Below are positions 16,910 to 32,243 of a stretch of 64,000 nt of DNA, piece after piece (position 1 is the stretch's first letter; the number at the start of each line of letters is the position of its first letter). The translations under genes and the position numbers were made by a program. The DNA comes from Bradyrhizobium sp. PSBB068 (GTDB lineage Bacteria; Pseudomonadota; Alphaproteobacteria; Rhizobiales; Xanthobacteraceae), in NCBI GenBank assembly GCA_016839165.1, contig CP069300.1:6706001-6770000 (forward strand), given 5' to 3'. The notes beneath the pieces are model-generated. The model was given only the letters and a program-made list of their open reading frames with translations. It was not told where the DNA came from and ran no database searches.

Positions 16910-19900
16910 TCACCCCGCCGCAGCAGCCGTTTCCTTCGGCTTGCCCTCGTTCTTCCCTTCCGCGAGGTTGCGCACCACCATGTAGAAGATCGGGGTGAAG
17001 ACGAGGCCGAACAGGGTGACGCCGAGCATGCCGAAGAACACGGCGACGCCGACCGCCTGCCGCATCTCCGAGCCCGAGCCGGTCGACAGCACCAGCGGCA
17101 GCACGCCGAGGATGAAGGCGAACGACGTCATCAGGATCGGCCGCAGGCGGAGCCGGCAGGCTTCGATCACTGCCTCCAGCCGCGGCCTACCCTCGAGCTC
17201 GATGTCGCGCGCGAACTCGACGATCAGGATCGCGTTCTTGGCGGCGAGCCCCACCAGCACCACGAAGCCGATCTGGGTCAGGATGTTGACGTCCTGGCCC
17301 ATGATGCGCACGCCGATCGTGGCCGCGAACAGGCACATCGGCACGATCAGGATCACCGCGAACGGCAGGGTCCAGCTGCCATATTGCGCGGCGAGCACGA
17401 GATAGACGAACAACACGCAGATCGGGAACACGTAGAGGCCGGCATTGGCGCCGTTGACTTGCTGATAGGACAGGTCGGTCCATTCGAACGAGAAGCCGCT
17501 TGGCAAGGTCTCGTCGGCGATCTTCTTGATGGTGTTGAGCGCCGTCGTTGAGCTGACGCCCGGCGCCGGCTCACCCTGTAGTTCGGACGCCGAGTAGAGA
17601 TTGTAGCGCGCGACACGGTCGGGGCCCGAAATGTCCTTGAAGTCGACCACGCTGCCGAGCATCACCATGTCGCCATTGGCGTTGCGGGTCCGCAGCCGCG
17701 ACAGGTCGGTGGCCTCCTTGCGGAACGGCAGGTCAGCCTGTGCGGTGACGTGGTAGGTGCGCCCGAACAGGTTGAAGTCGTTGACATAGGTCGAGCCGAA
17801 ATAGGTCTCGATCGTGTCGGTGATGTTGGCGATCGGCACGCCGAGCTTCTGCGCCTTGACCCGGTCGATATCGACGAACAGCTGCGGGGTGTTCGCAGAA
17901 TACGGCGAGAACACCGATGTGAGGCTCGGCGACTTGCGCGCGGCCTGCACCAGCTCGTCGGTCGCGGACGCCAGCAGTTCGGGGCCACGCCCCTGCCGGT
18001 CCTGGACACGGATCGTGAAGCCACCGCCGGTGCCGATGCCGGGCACGGCCGGCGGCGGAATCACGATGATGAAGGCGCCCTGGATCACCGCCAGCCGCTT
18101 GCGCAGCTCGGCGGTGATCGCGTTCGCCGTCAGCCCCTTCTTCAGGCGCGCCTCGGGCTCGTCGAACACCGGGAACAGCGCCGCGGCGTTGCCCGCCTGG
18201 GTGCGCGTCGCGCCGGAGAAGCCGGCGAACGCCGCGACGCGAACGATACCCGGCGTATCCAGCGCGATCCGCTCGATCTCACGCACCACGGCCGTGGTCC
18301 GCGCCAGCGACGCCGCGCCCGGCAGCTGCGCCGAGATGATGACGTAGCCGCGATCCTGCGCCGGGATGAAGCCCTGCGACGTGGTCGCCAGCAGCCAGCC
18401 GGCACTGCCGATCAGTGCGAGATAGATCACGACCATCACCACGGTGTGCCGGATCACGAAGTCGGCGACACCAGCATAGCCATGGGCCAGCCGGTCGAAC
18501 ACCCGGTTGAACAGCGCAGTAAAGCTGTCCCAGCCGCGCGCGATGATGTTCCAGCGTGCCGGCGGTCGCTTCTCCTCGTGCGGCACCAGGATCTGCGAGG
18601 CCAGCGCCGGTGACAGCGTCAGCGAGCAGAAGCAGGAGATCGCGGTCGCGACCGCGATGGTCACGGCGAATTGCTGGAAGAATTGCCCGGAGATGCCACC
18701 GAGGAACGCAGTCGGCACGAACACCGCGCACAGCACCAGCGCGATCGAGACCAGCGCGCCGCCGACCTCCTCCATGGTCTTCAGCGCGGCGTCGCGCCTC
18801 GACATGCCGTGCTCGAGATGCCGCTCGACGTTCTCGACCACCACGATGGCGTCGTCGACCACGATACCGACTGCAAGCACCAGGCCGAACAGCGTCAGAT
18901 TGTTGATCGAGAAGCCGAGCGCGGCCATCACCGCGAAGGTGCCGACCAGCGACACCGGGATCGCGATGATCGGGATGATGGCAGGCCGCCAGCCCTGCAG
19001 GAACACCAGCACCACGATGACGACAAGCGCCATCGCCTCGTAGATGGTCTTGATCAGCTCATGCACCGATTGGGCGATGAATTCGGTCGGGTTGTAGCCG
19101 ATATTGTAGTCGAGCCCCTTCGGGAAGCCCGCCTTCATCCGCTCCATCGTGTCGGTGATGCCCTTGGCGGTCGCGAGCGCATTCGATCCCGGCCGCTGCG
19201 TCACCAGCAGAGCGACCGCGGACTTGCGCAGCAGGAAGCTGTTGGTCGCGTAGGACAGTGCACCGAGCTCGACGCGGGCGACGTCACGCAGCCGCACGGT
19301 GCGGCCGTCGGAGCCGGCCTTGACCACGATGTCCTCGAACTGCCTGATGTCCTTGAGGCGGCCGGTGAAGACGAGGTTGGGCTGGAACGCGCGATCGGCG
19401 ATCGGCGGCTCGGCGATCTGGCCGCCCGCGATCTGCAAATTCTGCGCCCGGATCGCCGCCAGCACCTCGGCCGAGGTCAGACCGAGATTGGCGATCCGGT
19501 CGGGATCGAGCCACAGCCGCATCGAATAGTCGCGCGCGCCGAACATCTGGATGTCGCCGACGCCGTCGAGCCGCAGCAGCTGGTCGCGCACCTGCAGCAG
19601 CGCGTAGTTGGAGATGTAGAGCTGGTCGAACGTGTCGTCGGGCGACAGCATGAACACGACCATCAGGATGTCGGGCGAGTTCTTGCGCGTGGTGACGCCG
19701 TTGCGCTGCACCTCTTCAGGCAGCCGCGGCTGCGCAATCGCGACGCGGTTTTGCACCAGCACCTGGGCCTTGTCGAGGTCGGTGCCGAGCTTGAAGGTCG
19801 CGGTGATGGTCAGCTGGCCGTTCGAGGTCGCCTGGCTGTAGAGGTACAGCATGTCCTCGACGCCGTTGATCTCCTGCTCGATCGGGGCGGCGACGGTGTC

Positions 19901-20080
19901 GGACACGGTCTGCGCCGAGGCGCCCGGATACTGCGTGGTGACGACGACGGTCGGCGGCACCACCTGCGGATATTCCGAGATCGGCAGCGTCGGATAGGCG
20001 ATCGCGCCGACGATCAGCAGCACGATCGACAGCACCATCGCGAGGATGGGCTGGTTGATGGAAAGCCTTCCGAGATTCAT
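16910..20080 (-). CDS. RND multidrug efflux pump, inner-membrane subunit (AcrB/MexB, HAE1 type)
   Basis: A 1,056-residue protein of the length typical for HAE1 pumps. N-terminal segment 1 (about residues 10-30), a large periplasmic loop, a cluster of segments about 335-560 with the proton-relay motif VGIVVDDAIVVVENVERH (paired Asp near residue 405), GGISGQFFQQFAVTIA (about 462-477), a second periplasmic loop, and segments 870-1035. It exports hydrophobic compounds by proton antiport as a trimer with the adaptor encoded immediately upstream (4-base overlap) and an outer-membrane TolC-like channel. No channel gene and no TetR repressor is present nearby, so the channel is supplied in trans. Confidence 0.95.
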   Translation of the reverse strand: MNLGRLSINQPILAMVLSIVLLIVGAIAYPTLPISEYPQVVPPTVVVTTQYPGASAQTVSDTVAAPIEQEINGVEDMLYLYSQATSNGQLTITATFKLGTDLDKAQVLVQNRVAIAQPRLPEEVQRNGVTTRKNSPDILMVVFMLSPDDTFDQLYISNYALLQVRDQLLRLDGVGDIQMFGARDYSMRLWLDPDRIANLGLTSAEVLAAIRAQNLQIAGGQIAEPPIADRAFQPNLVFTGRLKDIRQFEDIVVKAGSDGRTVRLRDVARVELGALSYATNSFLLRKSAVALLVTQRPGSNALATAKGITDTMERMKAGFPKGLDYNIGYNPTEFIAQSVHELIKTIYEAMALVVIVVLVFLQGWRPAIIPIIAIPVSLVGTFAVMAALGFSINNLTLFGLVLAVGIVVDDAIVVVENVERHLEHGMSRRDAALKTMEEVGGALVSIALVLCAVFVPTAFLGGISGQFFQQFAVTIAVATAISCFCSLTLSPALASQILVPHEEKRPPARWNIIARGWDSFTALFNRVFDRLAHGYAGVADFVIRHTVVMVVIYLALIGSAGWLLATTSQGFIPAQDRGYVIISAQLPGAASLARTTAVVREIERIALDTPGIVRVAAFAGFSGATRTQAGNAAALFPVFDEPEARLKKGLTANAITAELRKRLAVIQGAFIIVIPPPAVPGIGTGGGFTIRVQDRQGRGPELLASATDELVQAARKSPSLTSVFSPYSANTPQLFVDIDRVKAQKLGVPIANITDTIETYFGSTYVNDFNLFGRTYHVTAQADLPFRKEATDLSRLRTRNANGDMVMLGSVVDFKDISGPDRVARYNLYSASELQGEPAPGVSSTTALNTIKKIADETLPSGFSFEWTDLSYQQVNGANAGLYVFPICVLFVYLVLAAQYGSWTLPFAVILIVPMCLFAATIGVRIMGQDVNILTQIGFVVLVGLAAKNAILIVEFARDIELEGRPRLEAVIEACRLRLRPILMTSFAFILGVLPLVLSTGSGSEMRQAVGVAVFFGMLGVTLFGLVFTPIFYMVVRNLAEGKNEGKPKETAAAAG

Positions 20081-21348
20081 GGCTTCGCACCTGCCGCCGG
20101 CTTGGCATCTGCGGGAGCTTTGTCACCCGTCGGGGCCTGGGCCATTTTCGGCGTCACCTTGGCGCCGACGCGGGCGCGTTGCAGTCCGTCGACGATCACG
20201 TGATCTTCCGGCTTGAGGCCCTCGCGAATCACGCGCAGGCCGTCATCCAGCGGCCCGAGCGTGACCGCGCGTGCCTCCACCGTGTTGTCGTCCTTGACCA
20301 CGAACACGATCTTGCGCGACTGGTCGGTGGCAATGGCGGTATCCGGGATCAGCAGCGCCTCATAGGGCGAGGAGCCGATCAGGCGGACGCGGCCGAACTG
20401 GCCGGGCAGGATCGACAGGTCCTTGTTCGGAATCACCGCGCGGCTGCGCAGCGTTGCAGTGGAGACGTCGAGACGGTTGTCGATGAAGTCCATCTTGCCC
20501 TCATGCGAGGGCTTGGTCTCGCCGGTCAGCGTCACCTGCACCGGGTTCGCCGTATCGCGCGAGCTCGGGCGCCGGCCTTCGAACCACAGCTTGCTGTTGC
20601 GCTGATAGGTCGCCTCGTCGACGTCGAAATAGATGTAGATCGGATCAAGCGACACGATCGAGGTCAGCAGCGTCGCGCCGCCCTCGCTGCCCTGCACGAG
20701 GTTGCCGGGGGTCACCAGATGCCGGCTGACGCGGCCGGTGATCGGCGCCAGCACGTGGGAGAACTCGACGTTGAGCTGCGCGGCCTTCAGCGAGCCCTCG
20801 GCCTGCGTCTCGGCGGCGCGCGCCGCCTGCAATGCCTGACGGCGCTGGTCGACGACCTGCTCCGAGACCGCGCTGGTCTGCACCAGGTTGAGCCCGCGCT
20901 CGAGATCGCGCTTGGCAAGCTCACCCTTGGCCCGCGCGTCGGCGAGCTGGCCTTCGGCCTGCAGCACCACGGCCTCGAACGGCCGCGGATCGATGATGTA
21001 GAGCAGATCGCCGGCGTGGACGATCGCACCGTCCTTGAACTCGACGCTGTTGACGAAGCCGCCGACGCGAGCGCGGACCTGCACCTCCTCGATCGCCTCG
21101 AAGCGGCCGGTGAATTCGTCCCAGTCGGTGACGGTGCGCTTGACCGGCTGCGCGACGGTCACGGGCGGCGCCGGGGGCGCGGTCTGCGACTGCGCGGCCT
21201 TCTCTTCGCAGCCGCCGAGCGCCAGCGCGGCCAGCAGCCCGAGCGGCGCCAGGCCGCGCCAAAGGCCGGGCGATGCTTGGCGTCGAAGCGAATGGCGCCC
21301 GACGCCGCTCACCGGAGCCAGACGGTCCGTTCTGTCAATCGACCTCAA
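20077..21348 (-). CDS. RND efflux periplasmic adaptor lipoprotein (AcrA/MexA type)
   Basis: About 423 residues. A hydrophobic stretch LGLLAALALGGC ends in a lipobox Cys, so the mature protein is a lipoprotein. After it come the beta-barrel, lipoyl (VGGFVNSVEFKDGAIVHAGD) and alpha-hairpin parts of membrane fusion proteins, and a Pro/Ala/Lys-rich tail. Start choice: no ATG exists upstream in frame. TTG 21348 follows a GGGGGAGAGGGAA tract and is my choice; GTG 21312 would give a more usual signal length (lipobox Cys at residue 35), and TTG 21429 the longest form. The gene overlaps the pump gene by four bases and forms a two-gene operon with it. It faces a 760-base divergent gap before the giant gene. 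Confidence 0.9.
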   Translation of the reverse strand: MRSIDRTDRLAPVSGVGRHSLRRQASPGLWRGLAPLGLLAALALGGCEEKAAQSQTAPPAPPVTVAQPVKRTVTDWDEFTGRFEAIEEVQVRARVGGFVNSVEFKDGAIVHAGDLLYIIDPRPFEAVVLQAEGQLADARAKGELAKRDLERGLNLVQTSAVSEQVVDQRRQALQAARAAETQAEGSLKAAQLNVEFSHVLAPITGRVSRHLVTPGNLVQGSEGGATLLTSIVSLDPIYIYFDVDEATYQRNSKLWFEGRRPSSRDTANPVQVTLTGETKPSHEGKMDFIDNRLDVSTATLRSRAVIPNKDLSILPGQFGRVRLIGSSPYEALLIPDTAIATDQSRKIVFVVKDDNTVEARAVTLGPLDDGLRVIREGLKPEDHVIVDGLQRARVGAKVTPKMAQAPTGDKAPADAKPAAGAKP

Positions 21349-22079
21349 TTCCCTCTCCCCCAAAAGACCACGAAGCACGCCGACCAATGCAGGGCTACGA
21401 AAGTCGCAACTGAATTTGCGGTGTTTCAACGCGGATGGACCACCGCGATGCCGCGGCGGCGGACGTCACAGATGTAGCCGCCCCTCAGTGTGTTCAAGAT
21501 GGCCGCCGGATCAAGAAAATAGTTGCGTAGTCTGAAAGCCTTACGACGCGCTCGCGAAACCGTGACGACGAAAAGGGGCAGATTGGCTGGCCTATCGGAC
21601 GCGCGAGATCACAGACGAATGGTCCTTAATCAATCACAACGCGAATTCGTATCACAGATTCGTCACACCACGTCGAACTCGACTTTTGGCACGGAAACCT
21701 CCGCCCCGCAGCCGGCACGTCCGGCCGGATTCCCCCACTCTACCTCCCGCTGTAGGACAGGAATCGTCGTTAATGGCGCGGTTGTCATCCGTGCGCACAT
21801 TGACACTCGGTTGTATCGCCAATACGGTCATGGTTGCCAAAGCATGAATTTTTTTGGCCGCCGCCTATTTCTCGAACATTCATCGTATTTTGTCGCGGCG
21901 CGAGTGTGTGAAGGCGACTACGTTATGGCAAGCGCATTTGATCTTGCTGATGTCACGGCTCCGCGGACATCGCGGCTTTCCCGTATTGCAGGCGGCTTGG
22001 TGCCGACCCCCGTCGCAAGCGGTCAACTTCAGCGTGTGAACGGCTTCACACGTCATCGTTCCCAACAAATGTAATTCTT
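21349..22079. other. Long divergent intergenic region, AT-richer than surroundings
   Basis: About 730 bases between the efflux operon and the giant extracellular protein gene. Base composition is visibly more AT-rich than flanking genes, with runs such as GAATTTTTTTGG near 21845. Short overlapping frames lack protein-like composition and good ribosome binding sites, so I call no gene. It is long enough for regulatory sites of both operons; one candidate promoter (21800) and a hairpin (22080) are listed separately. Confidence 0.5.
21800..21828 (+). promoter_or_regulatory. Candidate sigma-70-type promoter for the giant gene
   Basis: TTGACA at 21800-21805, a 17-base spacer, and TACGGT at 21823-21828. 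The -35 box is perfect, the -10 box matches only three or four positions. It would give a leader of roughly 275 bases. Pattern match only. Confidence 0.3.
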
Positions 22080-22099: not shown

Positions 22100-22111
22100 G
22101 CAGGAGTGCTC

Positions 22112-25100
22112 ATGACGACCATACCTGCTTATACAATCGGTGGTTTAACTCGCCCCGAACTTCAGCTCGATTCGACCGGCCATATCGTCCTCGATTCGGC
22201 CGCGTTGTCGTTCGCTGACACGTATGGTCTGCAATATCTCTACCTCGGCTGTCCTCCCGGCACGCCGTGGCCGCCGGTCACCGAATCGCTGGCGACGCCG
22301 GTTGACGCCAATCCAGGAAGCGGCACGGTCAGCGAAGGTGCCGCAGCCAACACCCTGGTCAACATTACCGCGCAAGCCGTCAGCAGCAGTGGCAATCCCG
22401 TCACCTATACGTTGACCGGCGATAGCTCCAATGGCGGCTTCAAGATTGATCCGAACACCGGCGTGGTATCGGTCGCCGACCCCACCAAAGTCAACTACGT
22501 GACCAGCCCGGGTCACGCCTACACCATCACGGTTCAGGCGAACGACGGCATAGCGACGAGCTCGCAGAGCTTCGTCATCGCGGTCACTGACGTCGCGCCG
22601 TCGACGCCGGTCGACAGCAACGCAGTCCCCAACAAGATCGCGGAAGGAGCCGCCGCCGGCACACCGGTCGGCATCACGGTAGTCGCGGCCGACATGAATG
22701 CGGTGACCTACAGCCTGACCGGCGATAGTTCGGGCGGCGGCTTCAAGATCGACCCCAACACCGGCGTGATCACCGTCGCCGATCCCAGCAAGATCGACTA
22801 CACGACCGCTCCCGGTCACGCCTACACCGTCACGGCGACGGCAAGCGACGGCACCCTGTCCAGCTCACAGACCTTCACGATCGCGGTGACGCTGGGCGCC
22901 GCCACGCACTTTGTCGTGAGCATCCCGGCCAACGGCACAGCGGGGACGCCGGGCTCGGTCACCGTTACCGCGCTCGATTCCCTGAACCACGTCGTCACCA
23001 ACTACACCGGCACGGTTCATTTCACGTCAAGCGACGGCCACGCCGTGCTGCCGGCCGACGTCACCTTGACCAACGGGGTCGGCAGCTTCAGCGAGACGCT
23101 GGATACCGCCGGCAGCCAAACGATCACGGCGACCGACACGGTCGATCACACCGTCACCGGGACGTCGAATGCCGAAATCGTGACGCCGGGCGTCGCCACG
23201 CATTTTTCTGTCAGTCTCCCCGCCAATGGCACAGCAGGGACGCCGGGCTCGATCATCGTCACGGCGCTTGATGCCTTCGGTAATGTCGCCACCGGTTATA
23301 CAGGAACCGTCCACTTCACCTCGACCGACGGCATTGCCGTGTTGCCGGCTGACACGACGCTGACCAACGGGGTCGGCACCTTCAGCGAGACGCTCGATAC
23401 CGCCGGCAGCCAGACCATCACCGCGACCGACACGGCGCACGGTGCGATCACCGGCACCTCGAATACCGAGACCGTGAAGGGGGGCGCCGCCACGCACCTT
23501 GTCGTGAGCATTGCCGCCAACGGTGCGGCGGGGACGCCCGGCACGGTCACCGTCACCGCGCTCGACGCCTTCGGCAACATCGCTACCGGCTATTCCGGCA
23601 CGGTGCACTTCACCTCGACCGACGGCCACGCCGTGCTGCCGGCCAACATGACGCTGACCAATGGCGTCGGCAGCTTCAGCGAGACCTTCGAGACCGTCGG
23701 CAACCAGACCATCACCGCGACCGACACGGTCAGCGCGGGCATTACCGGCACCTCGAACCCGGAAACAGTGGCGCCGGGGCCTGCGACCCATTTCACGGTG
23801 AGCATCCCGGCCAACGGAACCGCGGGCACGGCGGGTTCGGTCACCGTCACGGCGCTCGATGCCGGCAACAACATCGTCACCGGCTATTCGGGCACCGTGC
23901 ACTTCACCTCGACCGACGGTCAGGCGGTGCTGCCGGCCGACGTGACGCTGACCAACGGGGTCGGCACCTTCAGCGAAACCCTCGATACCGCCGGCAGCCA
24001 GACCATCACCGCGACCGACACGGTCCACAGCACGATCACCGGCACGTCGAACGCCGAGACGATCACGGCCGGCGCCGTCACCCATTTTGCGGTGGCCATC
24101 CCGGCCAACGGAACGGCCGGTTCGGCCGGTTCGGGCACGGTGACCGCACTCGATGCCTTCAACAATGTCGTCACGGGTTATTCGGGCACCGTCCACTTCA
24201 CGTCGACCGATGCCGCCGCCGTGCTGCCGGCCGACATGACGTTGACCAACGGCATCGCCACCTTCAGCGAGACCTTCGATAGCGCAGGCAGCCAGACCAT
24301 CACCGCGACCGACACGGCGCACGGTGCGATCACCGGCACCTCGAATACCGAGACCGTGAAGGGGGGCGCCGCCACGCACCTTGTCGTGAGCATTGCCGCC
24401 AACGGTGCGGCGGGGACGCCCGGCACGGTCACCGTCACCGCGCTCGACGCCTTCGGCAACATCGCTAGCGGCTATTCCGGCACGGTGCACTTCACCTCGA
24501 CCGATGGCCACGCCGTGCTGCCGGCCAACATGACGCTGACCAATGGCGTCGGCAGCTTCAGCGAGACCTTCGAGACCGTCGGCAACCAGACCATCACCGC
24601 GACCGACACGGTCAGCGCAGGCATTACCGGCACCTCGAACCCGGAAACAGTGGCGCCGGGGCCTGCGACCCATTTCACGGTGAGCATCCCGGCCAACGGA
24701 ACCGCGGGCACGGCGGGTTCGGTCACCGTCACGGCGCTCGATGCCGGCAACAACATCGTCACCGGCTATTCGGGCACCGTGCACTTCACCTCGACCGACG
24801 GTCAGGCGGTGCTGCCGGCCGACGTGACGCTGACCAACGGGGTCGGCACCTTCAGCGAAACCCTCGATACCGCCGGCAGCCAGACCATCACCGCGACCGA
24901 CACGGTCCACAGCACGATCACCGGCACGTCGAACGCCGAGACGATCACGGCCGGCGCCGTCACCCATTTTGCGGTGGCCATCCCGGCCAACGGAACGGCC
25001 GGTTCGGCCGGTTCGGGCACGGTGACCGCACTCGATGCCTTCAACAATGTCGTCACGGGTTATTCGGGCACCGTCCACTTCACGTCGACCGATGCCGCCG

Positions 25101-28100
25101 CCGTGCTGCCGGCCGACATGACGTTGACCAACGGCATCGCCACCTTCAGCGAGACCTTCGATACCGCAGGCAGCCAGGCCATCACCGCGACCGACACGGC
25201 GCACGGCGCGATCACCGGCACCTCGAATACCGAAACCGTCGCGCCGGGCGCCGCCACGCATTTCGTGGTGACCATCCCGGCCAACGGCAGGGCGGACGTT
25301 CCAGGCACCGTCACAGTCACCGCACTCGACGCCCACAACAACATCGCCACCGGCTATTCCGGCACGGTGCACTTCACCTCGACCGATGGCCACGCCGTGC
25401 TGCCGTCCAACATGACGCTGACCAACGGCACCGGCACCTTCAGCGAGACCTTCGGAACCGCCGGCAGCCAGACCATCACGGCGACCGACACGGTGAGTGC
25501 CGCCATCACCGGCACTTCGAATTCGGAAACGGTGGCGCCTCCGGACGCCCCGCCGGTCGTCACCGCGGGCCACACCCTGAACTACCTCGAGGCCCAGCCC
25601 GCGACGGCAATCGACCCGGCATTGACCGTCACCGATTCCGACTCGGCCAATCTGACGTTTGCGACCGTCCAGATCACCGGCAACTATTTCGCCGGCCAGG
25701 ACGTGCTCGCCTTCAGCCCCATTGGTGCCATCACCGGGGCGTTCGATGCCGTGCACGGCACGCTGACGCTGACCGGCAACGACACGGTCGCGCACTATCA
25801 GGCGGCGCTGGATGCGGTGACCTATTTCAACACCAGCAACAACCCGTCGGCCCTGGCCCGCACGGTCACCGTCATCGCCAGCGACGGCATCGTCGACAGC
25901 ACGCCAGTGACCGACACCATCAATGTCACGCCGGTCAACAACCCGCCGGTGGTGACGATCGGCGCGATCACCAACTTCAGCGAGCCGCCGGTCGGCACGC
26001 CGACCACGAGTTCCATCCCGGTCACGATCGCTCCCAACCTCACGGTTACAGACGTCGACAGCACCAATTTGATCAGCGCGACCTTCGTGCTGAACGACCT
26101 CAAGCCTTCTGACGCGCTCTCGATCGCGGGCCACGCCGGCTCGAGCGGCGACATCGGCAACATCCACTTCGCCATCACCAGCACGGCCACCACCGAAACC
26201 GTCACGCTGACCGGCACCGACACGATCGCGCACTACAATGCCGTGCTCGATGCCGTGCAGTTCAACAACACCGGCGAGCCCCCCGATACCACGGTGCGCT
26301 CGTATACCGTGACCGCACAAGACGATGGCGGCACCGCCAATGGCGGTCACGATACCGGTTCGGCGAACGCAACCCAGACCGTCACCGCGATCGACGATCC
26401 GCCAACCGCGACCGTGCCGTCGGATTCGTCGGTCGGCACCGCGTTCTCGCACACCAACCTCGCGATATCGGGGCTCTCGGTCGGCGACATCGATTCCGCA
26501 GGCCGCAATGAAACCGCAACGATCACGTCCAACCACGGCGCGTTGATCTTCGACACCACCGGCCTTGCCAGTTCCACCAACAACGGCAGCCACAGCGTTA
26601 CGCTCACCGGCACGATCGCGCAGCTCAACACCGCGCTGGCAACGCTGAACTACAACAGCGACAGCGGTTTCACCGGCTCGGACACCGTTACGCTGAATAT
26701 CAACGACAACGACCACACCGGCACCGGCGGCCCGCTCACGTCGGGACCGCAGAGTTTCCACGTCGGCGTCGTCCCGCATGTGTTCTACATCGACAACTCG
26801 GCCACCACGAGCCACAACCTCGGCACCCAGGCCGACCCGTACACCTCGATCGCGGCCTTCAACGCGGCGAATCCGGCAGGCGCAGGCGACTACGTCGTGC
26901 TCGAACACGGCACCGGCACCTACAGCGAAGCCAACGGCATCAGTCTCGCCAACGGCGTCAATTTGATCGGCGGCAGCCATCCGCTGCAGTTCACCAATCC
27001 GGTGACCGGCGCAACGGTCACCGCCAATGTCGGTTCCGGCACCGATCCGGTCATCCAGGTCACCGGCGCTCACAACGGCATCGACCTGCTCGGCACCACG
27101 GGCCACACCATCACCGGCGTCAACATCGATACCTCGGCCTCGACCGGTATCGGCATCAGCGACGACGGCAACAATGTCGGCACCGTCACGATGTCCGACA
27201 TCACGGTCAAGACATCCAGCGGCGCCGGCTTGAGCTTCACCCATGGCGGCACGATCACCGTCACCGGCAGCAACAACACCATCGCGTCCACGACCGGCAC
27301 CGCGCTCGATGTCGAGCACACCAACATCGGCGCCGGCAATCTCACCTTCAAGAGCATTTCCGCGACAGGCTCGTCGGGCAGTGCCGGCATTATCCTCGAC
27401 ACGACAGGAACGGCCGGCGGGCTGCATATCACCGGCACCGGGAGCGCGGGTTCCGGCGGCACCATCAACAACAAGACCGGCGCGGATATTCTCACCGGCA
27501 CCGATGCCGGCGGGCAAACCACGTCGGGCACCGGCGGAACGGGTATTTTCCTGCACAACACCGCCAACGTGTCGTTCACCGACATGTCGCTGCACGATTT
27601 CAGCAACTTCGCGATCTACGGCAACAACGTCACCGGATTCACCTTCGCCAGCGGCAGCATCAGCGGCGTCAACGGCACCAATAATGCGGGGAACCAGGAA
27701 GAGAGCAGCATCCGGTTCGACAATCTGCTCGGTACCTCGTCGATCACTGGGTCGAGCATTTCCGGCGGCTTCGACGAGAATGTCGACCTCTACAACACCA
27801 GCGGCACGCTGAACCGCCTGACGATGGATAGCGACACGTTCGGCTTGGTCGGCTCCGCCGGCAACGACAACGTCCGCGCGCAGGTCTTCAACTCCGCGAC
27901 GGCCAACTATACGCTGACCAACAGCACATTTGCCGGCACGCGAGCCGACTTCATCGCGATGGTTGCCAACAACAATTCGTCGATGGACGCCGTGGTCCGG
28001 AGCAACACGTTCCACAACGGCGAAACCATCGTTCCGGGCGGCGGAACGGCGGTCCATATTGCCAGCGGATCCGGCGGCAACGTCTCCGCCGCGACCACCA

Positions 28101-29560
28101 CGTTCGACATCTCGCACAACATCCTGACCGACGGCGGCGCCAACGCCTTCGACACCGCGGGCATCTTCGTTTCCAAGGGCCAGGACAACGGCACCATGTC
28201 CGGCACGATCGCCAGCAATCAGATCGGCCCCGCTCAGGTGAACTCGAATTCCGACGGCATCTTCGTCCGCACCGCCGGCAATGGCAGCCTGACCACGCTG
28301 ATCCAAAACAACACCATCACCGGCGTCGGCGACAATGGCATCCATCTACAGAACAACGACGGCAGTTCGACCCTGAACGCCACGGTCTACGGCAACTCGG
28401 TGTCGTCCCCGACCTCGACCAATCCGTTTGCGGCCATGCTCGTCGACAATGGCGCCACCGCGGGCCCGCCCGCCGACACCAGCACGACGAATATCGTCAT
28501 CGGCATGGGCCCCGGCGGCACCGGCAGCAAGAACACGCTGAACCACAGCTCGCTCTACGCCACCGACGTCGAGCTGAGCAACTTCGGCAGCAGCACCCAT
28601 CTGAACCTTTCGACGAACGGTTCGACGGCGAACAATCCTGCTGGCGTGATCACCGCCGACAACAGCAGCACCACGGGCGGCATCACCGTCGACACCACGG
28701 GCGGCAACGGCTTGACGACGCTGGTCTCGACGCTGCCGGCGCTTCCCGCGGTGGTCGCACCGCTGCTTGCCGAGGCGGGTGGCGTCGAGGCATCCAATCC
28801 CACCACGGGCGAGATGCACCTGACGCAGGATGAGCTCACCTCGGTGGTGTCGGCGGCGATCGCGCAATGGGCGAGCGCAGGCGCCAACGCGACGCAGCTC
28901 GCCCTGCTGCATGCCGCGACCTTCAGCATCGCCGACCTCTCCGGCCAGATCGTCGGACAGGAAGGCGCCGGGCATATCACGATCGATACCGATGCCGCCG
29001 GCCGCGGCTGGTTCATCGACCCGACGCCTGCTGACAATTTCGAGTTCACCCACGCCGTCAACGCTGCCGGCACCGATCTCCTGACCGATCCGTCGAGCGC
29101 CGCGGCCGGTCATCTCGATCTGCTGACCACCGTGGTGCACGAGCTCGGTCACGTGCTCGGCCTGCCCGATTCCATCTCGCCGTCCGATGCCAGCAGCCTG
29201 ATGTATATCGGCCTCTCCGACGGCGAGCGCCGACTGCCCACGGCTACGGATGTCGCTCAATCCAACCTGGCGTTGCAGAAGGCCATGCCGGCACAAGACA
29301 CGACGACCTCGGGTCAGCAGACGACGACGGTCAACGTGAGCAATGGGGATAGCTTCGACTTCTCGTCATTGACCAAGACGTCGTCGCAGACCACCACAAA
29401 CCATGTGGACCCGATCGCGAACACACAGACCTTGTCCGATCTGTTCAGCGGGCTTTCCAATGCCGCGCCCCCTTGGTGGGTCGGCCACGAGGCGACGTTC
29501 GCCGCCATGGGCGGAACGCCGACCGATCACCTCCAGACCCATCACGATCTGGTGGTTTGA
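22112..29560 (+). CDS. Giant secreted repeat protein: cadherin-like and Ig-like repeats, beta-helix, metzincin-like C-terminus
   Basis: A 2,482-residue protein. ATG 22112 has AGGAG five bases upstream; GTG 22106 overlaps that site. Order: a unique N-terminus without signal peptide (1-60); two cadherin-like modules with 'GGFKIDPNTGV' strands (about 62-261); nine 98-residue Ig-like repeats (262-1143); three cadherin/VCBS-like modules with DSD..N and NNPPVV linkers (about 1144-1550); a parallel beta-helix rich in N, G, T and S (about 1553-2195); and a domain at about 2225-2395 containing HELGHVLGLPD (2343-2353), the metzincin HExxHxxGxxD pattern, with a following SLMY methionine-turn candidate (Met 2364). 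Acidic, nearly Cys-free composition and lack of a signal peptide suggest type I secretion, but no exporter is adjacent. Probable roles are adhesion or matrix building with a processing protease; this is inference. Confidence 0.85.
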   Translation: MTTIPAYTIGGLTRPELQLDSTGHIVLDSAALSFADTYGLQYLYLGCPPGTPWPPVTESLATPVDANPGSGTVSEGAAANTLVNITAQAVSSSGNPVTYTLTGDSSNGGFKIDPNTGVVSVADPTKVNYVTSPGHAYTITVQANDGIATSSQSFVIAVTDVAPSTPVDSNAVPNKIAEGAAAGTPVGITVVAADMNAVTYSLTGDSSGGGFKIDPNTGVITVADPSKIDYTTAPGHAYTVTATASDGTLSSSQTFTIAVTLGAATHFVVSIPANGTAGTPGSVTVTALDSLNHVVTNYTGTVHFTSSDGHAVLPADVTLTNGVGSFSETLDTAGSQTITATDTVDHTVTGTSNAEIVTPGVATHFSVSLPANGTAGTPGSIIVTALDAFGNVATGYTGTVHFTSTDGIAVLPADTTLTNGVGTFSETLDTAGSQTITATDTAHGAITGTSNTETVKGGAATHLVVSIAANGAAGTPGTVTVTALDAFGNIATGYSGTVHFTSTDGHAVLPANMTLTNGVGSFSETFETVGNQTITATDTVSAGITGTSNPETVAPGPATHFTVSIPANGTAGTAGSVTVTALDAGNNIVTGYSGTVHFTSTDGQAVLPADVTLTNGVGTFSETLDTAGSQTITATDTVHSTITGTSNAETITAGAVTHFAVAIPANGTAGSAGSGTVTALDAFNNVVTGYSGTVHFTSTDAAAVLPADMTLTNGIATFSETFDSAGSQTITATDTAHGAITGTSNTETVKGGAATHLVVSIAANGAAGTPGTVTVTALDAFGNIASGYSGTVHFTSTDGHAVLPANMTLTNGVGSFSETFETVGNQTITATDTVSAGITGTSNPETVAPGPATHFTVSIPANGTAGTAGSVTVTALDAGNNIVTGYSGTVHFTSTDGQAVLPADVTLTNGVGTFSETLDTAGSQTITATDTVHSTITGTSNAETITAGAVTHFAVAIPANGTAGSAGSGTVTALDAFNNVVTGYSGTVHFTSTDAAAVLPADMTLTNGIATFSETFDTAGSQAITATDTAHGAITGTSNTETVAPGAATHFVVTIPANGRADVPGTVTVTALDAHNNIATGYSGTVHFTSTDGHAVLPSNMTLTNGTGTFSETFGTAGSQTITATDTVSAAITGTSNSETVAPPDAPPVVTAGHTLNYLEAQPATAIDPALTVTDSDSANLTFATVQITGNYFAGQDVLAFSPIGAITGAFDAVHGTLTLTGNDTVAHYQAALDAVTYFNTSNNPSALARTVTVIASDGIVDSTPVTDTINVTPVNNPPVVTIGAITNFSEPPVGTPTTSSIPVTIAPNLTVTDVDSTNLISATFVLNDLKPSDALSIAGHAGSSGDIGNIHFAITSTATTETVTLTGTDTIAHYNAVLDAVQFNNTGEPPDTTVRSYTVTAQDDGGTANGGHDTGSANATQTVTAIDDPPTATVPSDSSVGTAFSHTNLAISGLSVGDIDSAGRNETATITSNHGALIFDTTGLASSTNNGSHSVTLTGTIAQLNTALATLNYNSDSGFTGSDTVTLNINDNDHTGTGGPLTSGPQSFHVGVVPHVFYIDNSATTSHNLGTQADPYTSIAAFNAANPAGAGDYVVLEHGTGTYSEANGISLANGVNLIGGSHPLQFTNPVTGATVTANVGSGTDPVIQVTGAHNGIDLLGTTGHTITGVNIDTSASTGIGISDDGNNVGTVTMSDITVKTSSGAGLSFTHGGTITVTGSNNTIASTTGTALDVEHTNIGAGNLTFKSISATGSSGSAGIILDTTGTAGGLHITGTGSAGSGGTINNKTGADILTGTDAGGQTTSGTGGTGIFLHNTANVSFTDMSLHDFSNFAIYGNNVTGFTFASGSISGVNGTNNAGNQEESSIRFDNLLGTSSITGSSISGGFDENVDLYNTSGTLNRLTMDSDTFGLVGSAGNDNVRAQVFNSATANYTLTNSTFAGTRADFIAMVANNNSSMDAVVRSNTFHNGETIVPGGGTAVHIASGSGGNVSAATTTFDISHNILTDGGANAFDTAGIFVSKGQDNGTMSGTIASNQIGPAQVNSNSDGIFVRTAGNGSLTTLIQNNTITGVGDNGIHLQNNDGSSTLNATVYGNSVSSPTSTNPFAAMLVDNGATAGPPADTSTTNIVIGMGPGGTGSKNTLNHSSLYATDVELSNFGSSTHLNLSTNGSTANNPAGVITADNSSTTGGITVDTTGGNGLTTLVSTLPALPAVVAPLLAEAGGVEASNPTTGEMHLTQDELTSVVSAAIAQWASAGANATQLALLHAATFSIADLSGQIVGQEGAGHITIDTDAAGRGWFIDPTPADNFEFTHAVNAAGTDLLTDPSSAAAGHLDLLTTVVHELGHVLGLPDSISPSDASSLMYIGLSDGERRLPTATDVAQSNLALQKAMPAQDTTTSGQQTTTVNVSNGDSFDFSSLTKTSSQTTTNHVDPIANTQTLSDLFSGLSNAAPPWWVGHEATFAAMGGTPTDHLQTHHDLVV
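22895..25540 (+). repeat. Nine in-frame tandem 294-bp repeats (98 residues each)
   Basis: Nine consecutive units of exactly 294 bases encode Ig-like modules that each begin G-x-x-THF or THL, contain GTVHFTSTD and LTNGVGSFSET, and end TATDT...ITGTSN.ET. Units 1, 2 and 9 are the most diverged; units 3-5 are copied as units 6-8. The end at 25540 coincides with the change to a PDAPPVV linker. Confidence 0.92.
23407..25170 (+). repeat. Recent 882-bp duplication of three Ig-like units
   Basis: The stretch about 23407-24288 is repeated at about 24289-25170 with an offset of exactly 882 bases (3 x 294) and only a few base changes, for example CGCTACCGG versus CGCTAGCGG at 23581/24463 and GCGCGGGC versus GCGCAGGC. 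Near identity at silent sites implies a recent event or ongoing gene conversion. Confidence 0.9.
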
Positions 29561-29586
29561 TCGAACGCCGCGGCGACTCGAACAAT

Positions 29587-29609
29587 GCCTGCCGGACCAT
29601 CCGGCAGGC
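29587..29609 (+). terminator. Terminator hairpin after the giant gene
   Basis: A perfect 10-base stem, GCCTGCCGGA (29587-29596) and TCCGGCAGGC (29600-29609), with loop CCA, followed by GTTTCGATCTT. It lies 26 bases after the stop codon, so transcription of the tail-collar genes probably needs its own promoter. Confidence 0.7.
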
Positions 29610-29732
29610 GTTTCGATCTTGATCGGATCGCATACGCATCGATGCGGGTTGCGAAAGCTCCACGTCATCGCGACGACATCCATGTGTCACGCATCTAAAC
29701 AAAAAATCACAGAACTCATATGATCGTTGAGG

Positions 29733-29760
29733 TTGCACTTGGCGCAAAACACGCTATCGT
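29733..29760 (+). promoter_or_regulatory. Candidate promoter for the tail-collar operon
   Basis: TTGCAC at 29733-29738, a 16-base spacer and TATCGT at 29755-29760, in an AT-rich stretch 84 bases before the first collar gene and after the terminator at 29587. Pattern match only. Confidence 0.3.
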
Positions 29761-29843
29761 GCATTTCGCTGTCGCACGACCGCATTTGCCTTGCATTTTA
29801 TTCATTGCATCACTGACGAGACAGATCGTCTGACGGAGGATCG

Positions 29844-30341
29844 ATGTCCCAGCCGTTTCTCTCGGAAATCAAGATGATGTCGTTCAGCTTCCCGCCGAAA
29901 GGCTGGGCGTTCTGCAACGGTCAGCTGATGCCAATCAACCAGAACCAGGCCTTGTTCTCGCTGCTCGGCACGACCTATGGCGGCAATGGCCAGACCACCT
30001 TCGGGCTGCCCAATCTGCAAGGCAAGGTGCCGATCCATATGGGCTCCGGCTTCACGCTGGGCCAGACCGGCGGCGAGACGACGCACACGCTGACGACCTC
30101 CGAGATGCCGCAGCACCCCCACATCTTCCAGGGCACGACCAACCCCGCCGACAATGCGGTGCTCACCAACAATCTGATGGCGCAGTCGGCCAATCTCTAC
30201 ACCACGCCCAGCAATCTGACGACGCTGGTCGGGAGCACCGTCGGCAATGCCGGTGGCTCGCAACCTCACGAGAACATGCAGCCCTACCTCACGCTCAGCT
30301 TCTGCATCGCATTGCAGGGCATCTTTCCCTCCCAGACCTGA
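29844..30341 (+). CDS. Tail-collar domain protein 1 (MdpB-like)
   Basis: A 165-residue protein preceded by GGAGG. The N-terminal half is a phage tail-collar domain: PPKGWAFCNGQLMPINQNQ (about residues 17-35), LLGTTYGGNGQTTFGLPNLQG (in pieces, about 40-60) and PIHMGSG. The C-terminal half has the family end HENMQPYLTLSFCIALQG. Free-standing bacterial homologues are called microcystin-dependent protein MdpB; none has a settled molecular function, and they are not part of a phage here because no head, tail or lysis genes are near. The collar fold trimerises in phage fibres, so these may form fibre-like assemblies. First of three tandem paralogues, with a 12-base gap to the next. Confidence 0.9.
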   Translation: MSQPFLSEIKMMSFSFPPKGWAFCNGQLMPINQNQALFSLLGTTYGGNGQTTFGLPNLQGKVPIHMGSGFTLGQTGGETTHTLTTSEMPQHPHIFQGTTNPADNAVLTNNLMAQSANLYTTPSNLTTLVGSTVGNAGGSQPHENMQPYLTLSFCIALQGIFPSQT

Positions 30342-30353
30342 AGGACGCCCATC

Positions 30354-30857
30354 ATGAGCCAGCCCTACGTCGGCGAAATTCGGATGTTCGGCGGCAATTT
30401 CGCGCCGGCCGGTTGGATGCTTTGCCAGGGACAGGTCGTGCCGATCGATCAGTACGACACCTTGTACAATTTGATCGGGACCACCTATGGCGGAGACGGC
30501 CAGTCGACATTCGCGCTGCCGAACCTGCAGGGCCGCCTTCCGATGCACCAGGGCGCTGGCTTCGTCATGGGGCAGACCGGGGGCGTCGAACAGGTGACGC
30601 TGATCACCCAGCAACTGCCCGTCCACAACCACCCGATGGCCGCATCGCTGAACAATGCGACCGGCAACACGGTGACCGGCAATGTCGTGGGCAGTGTGGG
30701 CGCGACCCAGATCTATCGCGAGGCCCCGGCCGCCTCTGCGATGGCGAACCAGGCGTGCACGTTCGTCGGCGGCAACCAGCCGCATAACAACATGCAGCCC
30801 TACCTTTGCATCAACTTCATTATTTCACTGTTCGGCGTTTATCCGAGCCAAACCTAG
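30354..30857 (+). CDS. Tail-collar domain protein 2 (MdpB-like)
   Basis: A 167-residue paralogue with AAGGA upstream of its ATG. It keeps the collar core (APAGWMLCQGQVVPIDQYD, IGTTYGGDGQSTFALPNLQG, in pieces within residues 17-60) and the C-terminal PHNNMQPYLCINFIISLFG, but differs from paralogues 1 and 3 in the middle region and around residues 90-140, which in phage fibres is the variable part. The consistent difference between the middle gene and its neighbours suggests three specialised subunits rather than a simple dosage duplication. Nine bases separate it from the third gene. Confidence 0.9.
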   Translation: MSQPYVGEIRMFGGNFAPAGWMLCQGQVVPIDQYDTLYNLIGTTYGGDGQSTFALPNLQGRLPMHQGAGFVMGQTGGVEQVTLITQQLPVHNHPMAASLNNATGNTVTGNVVGSVGATQIYREAPAASAMANQACTFVGGNQPHNNMQPYLCINFIISLFGVYPSQT

Positions 30858-30866
30858 GACGGGACC

Positions 30867-31394
30867 ATGTCTGATCCATTCTTGGCCGAGATCCGCATAT
30901 TCCCGTTCAATTTTGCGCCCAAGGGATGGGCCTTCTGCAACGGCCAGCTGATGCCGATCTCGCAGAACACCGCGCTGTTCTCCTTGCTCGGCACCACTTA
31001 CGGCGGCGACGGCAGGAGCAACTTCGCGCTGCCCAACATGCAGGGCAATTCGCCGATGCAGCAGGGGCAGAGCATCACCGGCTCCTCCTACATCCTGGGC
31101 GAGAACGGCGGCACCCCCTCCGTGACATTGCTGCAAAGCGAAATGCCTCAGCACAACCATCCGATTCAAGGCAATATCAATCCGTCGGATCTCGCCACGC
31201 CCAGCCCGGCGCGATCGCTGGCGCGCGCGAACCCGGGCCAAGCCTACACGGCAACGCTGAGCAACATTGCGCAGTTCGCGCCGGCCAGCTCGATACTTCC
31301 GAACGGCGGCAGCATGCCCCACAACAATTTGATGCCCTATCTCACCTTGAACTTCTGCATCGCGTTGCAGGGCATTTTCCCGCCGCGCAGCTGA
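30867..31394 (+). CDS. Tail-collar domain protein 3 (MdpB-like)
   Basis: A 175-residue paralogue closest to the first (PKGWAFCNGQLMPISQNTA and SLLGTTYGGDGRSNFALPN within residues 15-56). It has an extra insertion around residues 70-80 (QSITGSSYILGENGG) and ends PHNNLMPYLTLNFCIALQG. It ends eight bases before the GNAT gene, so the four genes very probably form one transcript. No signal peptide is present on any of the three collar proteins, so export, if any, is by an unusual route. Confidence 0.9.
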   Translation: MSDPFLAEIRIFPFNFAPKGWAFCNGQLMPISQNTALFSLLGTTYGGDGRSNFALPNMQGNSPMQQGQSITGSSYILGENGGTPSVTLLQSEMPQHNHPIQGNINPSDLATPSPARSLARANPGQAYTATLSNIAQFAPASSILPNGGSMPHNNLMPYLTLNFCIALQGIFPPRS

Positions 31395-31401
31395 GCTGGA
31401 C

Positions 31402-31962
31402 ATGGCGGATGGCTTGAGCACAGATAGGGTTTCCGCGGCGTTCGGGTGGACACGCGCGGCGGATGCCGGCTTGACCTTCCGTCATATCACCGAAGCCGAC
31501 CTGCCGTTCCTCGCGCGGCTCTACGCCTCGACCCGCACCGAGGAACTGGCGGTCACCCCGTGGAGCGCGGAGCAGAAGGCCGCCTTCCTCGCCATGCAAT
31601 TCCAGGCGCAGCACGCGCATTACCAGCAGCATTATCCGACCGCCGACTGGCTGGTGACGATGCGCGGCGGCGAGGATGTCGGCCGTCTCTATCTCGACCG
31701 CTGGCCGAGCGAGCATTGCGTCATCGATATCGCCTTGCTGCCGGAATATCGCGGATCCGGCCTCGGCGGCGCGCTGATGCGCGACCTGCTCGACGAGGCC
31801 GCCGCGGCCGGCAAGGCGATGTCGATCCATGTCGAGAAGTACAATCCCGCGATGCGACTCTATCGCCGGCTCGGCTTCGTGACCGAGGAAGACAAGGGCG
31901 TCTACGACCTGATGCGCTGGCGCGCACCGGAAGCTCCCGGCGGTCAGGTGAAGACCGCCTGA
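31402..31962 (+). CDS. GNAT-family N-acetyltransferase associated with tail-collar genes
   Basis: A 186-residue cytoplasmic acetyltransferase. The acetyl-CoA loop is LLPEYRGSGLGGALM (about residues 113-127; R/Q-x-x-G-x-G/A form), preceded by beta-strand 4 (CVIDIALL) and followed by the MSIHVEKYNPAMRLYRRLGF motif B region (in pieces, about 140-160). The N-terminal half holds LARLYASTRTEELAVTPW and the AFLAMQFQAQHAHYQ helix. Co-transcription with the collar genes suggests that it modifies one of them or another component of the same module, but no substrate can be read. Its last 19 bases overlap the end of the convergent DUF6916-like gene. Confidence 0.88.
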   Translation: MADGLSTDRVSAAFGWTRAADAGLTFRHITEADLPFLARLYASTRTEELAVTPWSAEQKAAFLAMQFQAQHAHYQQHYPTADWLVTMRGGEDVGRLYLDRWPSEHCVIDIALLPEYRGSGLGGALMRDLLDEAAAAGKAMSIHVEKYNPAMRLYRRLGFVTEEDKGVYDLMRWRAPEAPGGQVKTA

Positions 31963-32243
31963 TAGCCGTTGCCGTCTTCGAGCGGGCCAATCGGCACCAG
32001 GAAGATGTCGATCACGCCGAGCGCCGGATGCCGCACCGGATAGATCGCCTGCGGCAGCCAGGCCCCCTTCGGCCCCGCGAACAGCAGCGAGAACGCGCCG
32101 CCCGGCCGGCCGCTGTTGCCCGCGGGCTCGACCTTGGCGAGCTTCAGCACCACCACGCGATCCGCCGCCCGCAACTCGAACCCGGCATCCTGGTACGGCG
32201 TGAAGTCATCAATATGCAATTTCGCGAGATCGACGGTGGTCAT
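31944..32243 (-). CDS. DUF6916-like small protein
   Basis: A 99-residue protein; ATG 32243 has AAGGA five bases upstream. It resembles the small uncharacterised family I know as DUF6916: an N-terminal FTPYQDAGFEL, a central GAFSLLFAGPKGAWLPQ, and the strongly conserved end IDIFLVPIGPLEDGNGYQAVF. From memory such genes commonly sit beside tail-collar genes; this was not searched here. It looks like a compact all-beta domain without signal or membrane segment. It is transcribed toward the GNAT gene and overlaps its 3' end by 19 bases. Confidence 0.72.
   Translation of the reverse strand: MTTVDLAKLHIDDFTPYQDAGFELRAADRVVVLKLAKVEPAGNSGRPGGAFSLLFAGPKGAWLPQAIYPVRHPALGVIDIFLVPIGPLEDGNGYQAVFT

Follow-up and report, generated by a model that had tools for sequence, protein, structure and literature searches.

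A cassette of three tail-collar genes, an acetyltransferase and DUF6916 recurs beside giant repeat proteins in several bacterial phyla

Do a giant repeat protein of Bradyrhizobium sp. PSBB068 and the five small genes that follow it form a unit, or are they neighbors by coincidence? The locus lies in a window of 64,000 nucleotides (the whole stretch of DNA that was analyzed), for which the original prediction proposed a surface-structure system of a giant protein, three tail-collar paralogues, a GNAT acetyltransferase and a DUF6916-like protein. We recovered all of these parts where they had been placed. The giant gene (22112..29560) is followed on the same plus strand by the genes for collar protein 1 (29844..30341; 165 aa), collar protein 2 (30354..30857; 167 aa), collar protein 3 (30867..31394; 175 aa) and the GNAT acetyltransferase (31402..31962; 186 aa), and the gene of a DUF6916 protein of about 99 aa is convergent on the minus strand (31944..32243). 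The stop-to-start gaps are 12 nt (collars 1 and 2), 9 nt (collars 2 and 3) and 7 nt (collar 3 and GNAT), and the GNAT and DUF6916 genes overlap tail-to-tail by 19 nt. The 283 nt between the giant gene and collar 1 contain a strong hairpin (29578..29616, plus strand) and a weak sigma-70-like promoter match upstream of collar 1 (29696..29724, plus strand; 9 of 12 positions); two such matches were found in the region for 0.6 expected. The hairpin had been read as a terminator at 29587: it is indeed very stable (−30.5 kcal/mol; z = −4.48), but it carries no T tract and no intrinsic terminator was called.

The giant open reading frame (22106..29560, plus strand) yields a protein of 2,482 aa from the ATG at 22112, which is preceded by CAGGAG. 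The protein presents a Pfam Cadherin match (57 bits), and nine tandem repeats of 294 bp lie within the gene (22886..25539, plus strand; Tandem Repeats Finder, 78% matches). A metzincin-like stretch with the motif HELGHVLGLPD (28802..29218, plus strand; residues 2233–2371) weakly matches Peptidase_M10 (PF00413; 19.4 bits, below the cut-off of 24) and karilysin (E = 0.05), and no Pfam beta-helix model was called in the giant at E ≤ 0.01. The description of this protein as export-type fared unevenly: no N-terminal signal peptide was seen by eye, but the C-terminal end resembles, again by eye, the substrates of type I secretion. No dedicated set of ABC exporter, HlyD and TolC genes was found beside the giant gene; the adjacent genes encode an AcrB-family RND pump and its HlyD-type adaptor, divergent from the giant (minus strand, 16910–21429). 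A similar RND-like gene was noted by eye near the collars and giant of another locus (L134, 16780–19920). On the minus strand of the window, a 1,772-aa open frame (23027–28345) runs antisense across the giant's repeats and looks like a by-product of their composition.

The three collar proteins match PF07484 with 94.9, 97.9 and 97 bits, respectively, against a cut-off of 24, and they are non-identical, as predicted: collars 2 and 3 present 45% and 58% identity to collar 1. Collars 1 and 2 also weakly match the gp10 C-terminal domain (PF21939). The profile matches of the collar in the PDB are a tail fibre (8kec; E = 1e-9) and T4 gp12 (1ocy and 1pdi; E = 0.006–0.009). In T4 gp12, an HxH motif forms a metal site on the trimer axis. 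This pattern, located at residues 91/93 of collar 1, was found in 328 of 330 collars and is invariant across all three paralogues in an alignment of 25 rows. An AlphaFold model of the linked collar triplet reached a mean pLDDT of 52.5 and a pTM of 0.47, with heads at about 90 and collar cores below 50, and gave no fold match. No signal peptide was seen by eye on the separate collars, and their export is putative. Elsewhere, the genome of the window holds two more lone collar-domain genes (G000:C1:2778732-2778902 and 4908529-4908684, in open frames of 300 and 341 aa).

The GNAT protein matches Acetyltransf_1 (PF00583; 49.3 bits), and its best relatives in the PDB are N-acetyltransferases (E = 5e-8 over 70 residues). 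The DUF6916 protein matches PF21880 (90.4 bits), and its predicted model (pLDDT 94.9) bears a borderline resemblance to PilZ-N barrels. By eye, neither the GNAT protein nor the short form of DUF6916 presents a signal peptide. DUF6916 is uncommon, being found in 8 of 190 genomes of the class and 38 of 296 genomes of the family.

Genome contigs were searched with the collar alignment only, and the best 80 named loci of at least 573 relatives were inspected with GNAT and DUF6916 profiles built from this analysis. Giants were defined as large Gly/Ser/Thr/Asn-rich ORFs of at least 800 aa, or at least 350 aa when cut by a contig end. Among these best 80 loci, exactly three collars were found in 78 (the other two, L064 and L088, are cut by a contig end), GNAT in 70 and DUF6916 in 63. 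A giant lies within 1.5 kb in 67 of them: 66 pass the filter, four of them only through an ORF on the opposite strand, and we added L054, where two ORFs make up a split giant and the closer of them is 277 nt away. In the 53 of these loci that are flanked by at least 3 kb on both sides, three collars were present in 53, GNAT in 52, DUF6916 in 49, a giant repeat-type protein within 1.5 kb in 48 and all four features in 44. The fully flanked loci lacking a giant within 1.5 kb are L096, L120 (which has one at 4.8 kb), L121, L049 and L080. Filter-passing giant ORFs concentrate near the cassette, with 65 at 0–1 kb, 5 at 1–2 kb, none at 2–4 kb and 3 at 4–7 kb. The position and strand of the client gene vary between loci, and where a giant of at least 800 aa lies upstream on the same strand (40 loci), a gap of 15–57 nt was found in 13. 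Judging by the titles of their records, the best 80 loci cover six phyla: Alpha- and Beta/Gammaproteobacteria, Verrucomicrobiota, Chloroflexota, Actinomycetota, Acidobacteriota and Bacteroidota. Within the genus, the last 486 residues of the giant gave 25 matches in 117 genomes, 17 of which adjoin a triplet on the same strand; the remaining eight comprise a fragment of 387 aa (G503) and short stretches within ORFs of 9,364–13,857 aa. The original prediction feared that giant and collars were linked by coincidence and would have given up the unit if triplets usually lacked these neighbors; triplets of this kind keep GNAT, DUF6916 and a giant across phyla, and the association is real. In the window, this widespread cassette is present once, as a client gene (here the giant), three collar paralogues, GNAT and DUF6916.

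The reverse search, starting from DUF6916, points to the same association: 40 of the 47 places other than its own were fetched, and collars within about 10 kb were found in 36 of these 40, as was GNAT in 36 of 40. Four DUF6916 places lack nearby collars; L142 lies at a contig end, the triplet of L143 is about 11 kb off, that of L144 is on another contig, and L164 is likewise collarless. On plasmids, 68 records match collar 3, and eight regions were picked for diversity from the 30 matches listed. All eight present the triplet, GNAT and a neighboring protein of 899–4,170 aa, and DUF6916 was detected by profile in six of them but not in Paenibacillus or Deinococcus ficus. Annotated plasmids extend the cassette to Deinococcota and Bacillota, and the region of a Comamonas plasmid includes a ShlB/FhaC-type partner gene. 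Several loci carry additional genes. In Mesorhizobium and some others, collar 3 and GNAT are separated by an additional 400–495-aa gene of one family, which by eye looks propeller-like (L071 11574-12887, L089, L091, L101, L108, L180 18558-20042 and L185 14598-15815), and in Deinococcus plasmids the same slot is occupied by a periplasmic-binding protein with a Tat-like start (L178 14614-15864, with a PF13458 fold, and L184 7081-8241). At L133 (9291-10219), inspection by eye showed a tandem of two acidic DUF6916-like proteins, neighbored by a pair of collars and a DUF4347-like giant.

The composition of the cassette is not uniform. Eleven loci of the same genus (L212, L213 and L215-L223) present the triplet and GNAT without detected DUF6916, and nine of them carry a divergent protein of 1,432–2,101 aa whose end is autotransporter-like by eye; Pfam called 13 TIG stretches and no autotransporter model in the divergent giant of L219, but called an autotransporter model in that of L134. 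L109 has giants and neither GNAT nor DUF6916, and L156-L163 are single-collar cassettes with GNAT and DUF6916. A class-wide search for collars found matches in 26 of 190 genomes, and 15 further regions were fetched. Neither GNAT, DUF6916 nor a giant was detected at three distant triplets (L230, L231 and L232, the last two similar to each other) or at the pair L233. This class-wide sample also contains lone collars (L238, L239, L241, L243 and L244), loci with GNAT (L234-L236 and L240) and loci with a giant (L237 and L240). The triplet of L230 (9163-10862) lies beside genes that look, by eye, like polyketide/fatty-acid synthase genes, possibly a further partner class.

The number of collars is remarkably constant. 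When runs of near-full-length collar genes were counted only if no contig end lay within 700 nt, we found 125 runs of three, 1 of six, 3 of two and 11 of one, although some of the loci are identical or related and these counts are not independent; nine collar genes were found at a contig edge on L165. Ordered by nearest paralogue profile, the run of six reads 213213 and the run of nine 323323323. In the collar tree, the bipartition of position-2 collars has a support of 0.985 and unites 99 of 105 position-2 collars with 12 other triplet collars, and positions 1 and 3 are less clean (0.66 and 0.33). The identity matrices of the collars co-vary (r = 0.77–0.86 over 59 loci), a signal that either co-evolution or shared descent could produce, and the collar-GNAT and collar-DUF6916 correlations are low (r = 0.16–0.30). 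The rule of three predicts a collar head of 1:1:1 composition. Copy number and co-variation favor the hetero-oligomeric (trimeric) collar set suggested earlier, but the linked AlphaFold model, with its low scores, does not show it.

Could the collars be the remnant of a prophage or tailocin lying beside an unrelated adhesin gene? PHROGs tail families do match them and the database names them tail fiber proteins, but the scanned flanking genes (ten by Pfam, six by PHROGs) contain no phage structural, lysis or integration genes, as the original prediction had it, and no sheath, tube or baseplate genes of tailocins or contractile injection systems; they encode an RND pump, a CrtC-like lipocalin, AMP-binding, TauD and solute-binding proteins, among others. 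The 239 phage records that match the collars all do so at less than 60% identity (35–38% for the best rows listed). The three long matches in IMG/VR look like bacterial collar arrays: one "viral" contig (L165, 1-5456) is made up of three triplets, nine collar genes in all, L166 holds six collar genes and L167 holds GNAT, a triplet and a giant, and all three are likely bacterial DNA filed as viral. Together with the conservation of the cassette in several phyla, these results make a phage remnant extremely improbable. A fixed triplet that travels with GNAT, and often DUF6916, beside giants across phyla looks like a bacterial surface system rather than phage debris. PADLOC models of defence proteins recognized no family among the six proteins.

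Further evidence comes from genes in which collars and giants are joined. In the same genus, the ORFs L210 and L211 contain three collar domains inside one giant chain, and in L210 the Pfam calls are DUF4347, Collar (three stretches) and Big (two domains). A protein search with the L210-type fused region gave 171 relatives at E ≤ 1e-10; among the 120 listed, the number of collar cores is three in 116, six in three and two in one, a distribution biased towards three by a query that itself held three collars. Of the 18 listed rows that cover 63–70% of the query, 17 nevertheless present three collars. By hand count, the 120 relatives listed include 39 with RTX (PF00353), 20 with DUF4347 and 14 with Peptidase_M10, the class of the end of the window's giant. 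The HxH motif is kept in P0048, which joins a metzincin motif and collars in one chain, and in P0104, whose chain begins with a signal-like stretch and ends in a tail of T9SS type; by eye, the collars of fusions like L210 and P0028 lack it. Because collars are fused to RTX, cadherin-like, DUF4347 or metzincin chains, collar heads can probably function extracellularly, together with giant chains, and these natural fusions support the earlier idea that collars work with the giant. No GNAT or DUF6916 was seen within the 3–9 kb flanks of the three fused loci L210, L211 and L245, two of which are close relatives, which we read as an indication that the helpers matter when collars are separate chains.

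Giants are not the only partners. Of the 40 DUF6916-seeded loci, 19 (18 grouped by clustering, plus L129) have a PqqD-like gene beside the cassette or collar, as do L234, L235 and L239, and most of these loci also present genes for a lasso B2-like protein, an asparagine-synthase-like cyclase, an HprK-like kinase or a sulfotransferase, in sets that vary per locus. The B2 model scored above the NCBIfam cut-off in L125, L126, L137 and L235, and the PqqD and cyclase models scored below it. In Alphaproteobacteria, a lasso-peptide-type cluster is an alternative partner of the cassette. Like the role of three collars as the repeating unit, this partner class could not be seen from the sequence behind the original prediction. 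Small ORFs with a W/Y-x-x-P motif, which we take to be leader-like, precede the collars in 7 of 23 lasso-type loci versus 1 of the 80 collar-seeded loci (6 of 22 when leaving out L231, which was placed in the lasso-type set because of its small ORF). All seven end in serine, which the search pattern did not demand; these candidate precursors are L125 7137-7325, L131 10307-10537, L132 9351-9533, L140 10598-10774, L148 7086-7319, L152 14212-14370 and L231 8731-8961. HprK-like kinase genes were noted in several loci with a candidate precursor. The two partner classes raise the question of what trait a giant adhesin and a lasso peptide share that would call for the same head.

We give an even chance to the reading that the three collars form one hetero-trimeric, HxH-bearing head that works with an exported client, with GNAT and DUF6916 maturing or escorting it. 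The triplet would fold into a single phage-type head with the HxH metal site on its axis, and this head would cooperate with the giant extracellularly, be it as a tip, a cap or a binding head. More tentatively, GNAT and DUF6916 may be maturation or escort factors that only separate-chain collars require, and DUF6916 with a twin-arginine signal could, in some lineages, carry the pre-folded head through Tat; such a signal was found in 23 of the 80 collar-seeded loci, alongside or instead of the short form, and its pattern also occurs in 15 of the 447 remaining called ORFs. Against this reading we count the separate collars without a signal peptide by eye, the choice of only the best 80 of at least 573 relatives, the fusion query with its own three collars, the poor fold of the linked triplet, the distant triplets and the pair without GNAT, DUF6916 or giant (L230-L232 and L233), the lone collars, the single-collar cassettes, the 11 same-genus loci without detected DUF6916, the low correlations of collars with GNAT and DUF6916, and the missing HxH in L210/P0028-type fusions. 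A broader version, an extracellular assembly system in which a phage-derived, acetylated hetero-trimeric head is built in the cytosol, leaves as a folded complex (in some lineages via Tat on signal-bearing DUF6916) and is fitted to two unrelated client types, giants and lasso peptides, across phyla, strikes us as unlikely.

Other readings retain the genes but divide their roles differently. The triplet could be a functionally independent module that is merely co-localised on exchangeable surface islands, with giant and lasso genes as fellow travellers. Two unrelated partner classes, the variable position and strand of the client, the cassettes on plasmids, the low collar-GNAT correlation and, in the window, the hairpin-bearing gap of 283 nt all fit such a module; it is nonetheless improbable in view of the 15–57 nt gaps in 13 of 40 loci, the fusions of three collars with giants, and the giant-end matches of the genus, of which 17 of 25 lie by triplets and the remainder are a fragment or short matches in far larger ORFs. 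Each collar might instead form a homotrimeric head of its own, giving three alternatives that bind different ligands. Phage collars are homotrimers, some lineages have a single collar (L156-L163), and the linked AlphaFold model, with its pLDDT of 52.5, does not distinguish the two arrangements. A tool kit of alternative heads would, however, be expected to vary in number, so the copy number of three, six or nine counts against it, as do the three cores within one chain and the co-variation of collars, and we consider homotrimeric heads doubtful. Finally, the collars could serve as a cytosolic platform that chaperones or modifies an exported client and never leaves the cell; this would agree with the lack of signal peptides, by eye, on collars, GNAT and short DUF6916 and with the cytosolic location of the enzymes of lasso-type clusters, one of the client classes. 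The opposite is argued by the fusions, in which collars are part of secreted-type chains whose ends are of RTX, DUF4347 or T9SS type, making a purely cytosolic role quite unlikely.

If the hetero-trimeric head working with an exported client is the right reading or not, the cassette itself occurs in several phyla, and we found no description of it in the literature searched; its function is putative. Many bacterial genes annotated as "tail fiber protein" or "microcystin-dependent protein" may belong to such cassettes rather than to phages, which would change annotation and prophage calling. The cassette is composed of known domain families in a combination that matches no known system tested, and it could alternatively be counted as one more domesticated phage-tail part. 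Phage tail collar and short tail fibre heads (T4 gp12, PF07484; gp10, PF21939) share the domain and the HxH motif. Unlike them, the cassette collars are free-standing proteins of 165–175 aa without a shaft, encoded as three paralogues in a row without phage genes, and they accompany a client protein instead of a virion. Lasso peptide clusters share B2, PqqD-like, cyclase-like, HprK-like and sulfotransferase genes with the second class of cassette loci; we found no literature pairing lasso peptides with a tail collar or tail fiber, and lasso genes are absent from the scanned flanking genes of the window. The MdpB/RhiB-type proteins (COG4675, "microcystin-dependent protein") are likewise bacterial, free-standing collar proteins. 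In the part of the source consulted, RhiB is a collar protein of the rhiABCD operon, flanked by rhiI and rhiR (PMC13133039), and it is described there as a single collar, whereas the present cassette has three paralogues with GNAT, DUF6916 and a giant. In Solibacter usitatus, three groups of paralogues are reported to show a sign of positive selection, and phage tail collar paralogues are one of them (PMC3174227). COG4675 proteins are listed in a soil metaproteome (PMC5579227), so relatives are produced in natural settings. Giant secreted adhesins (DUF4347/cadherin/RTX, type I or type V secreted) are similar to the giants of the cassette in repeat composition, size and export-type ends, but the giants described here are accompanied by, or fused to, three collar heads.
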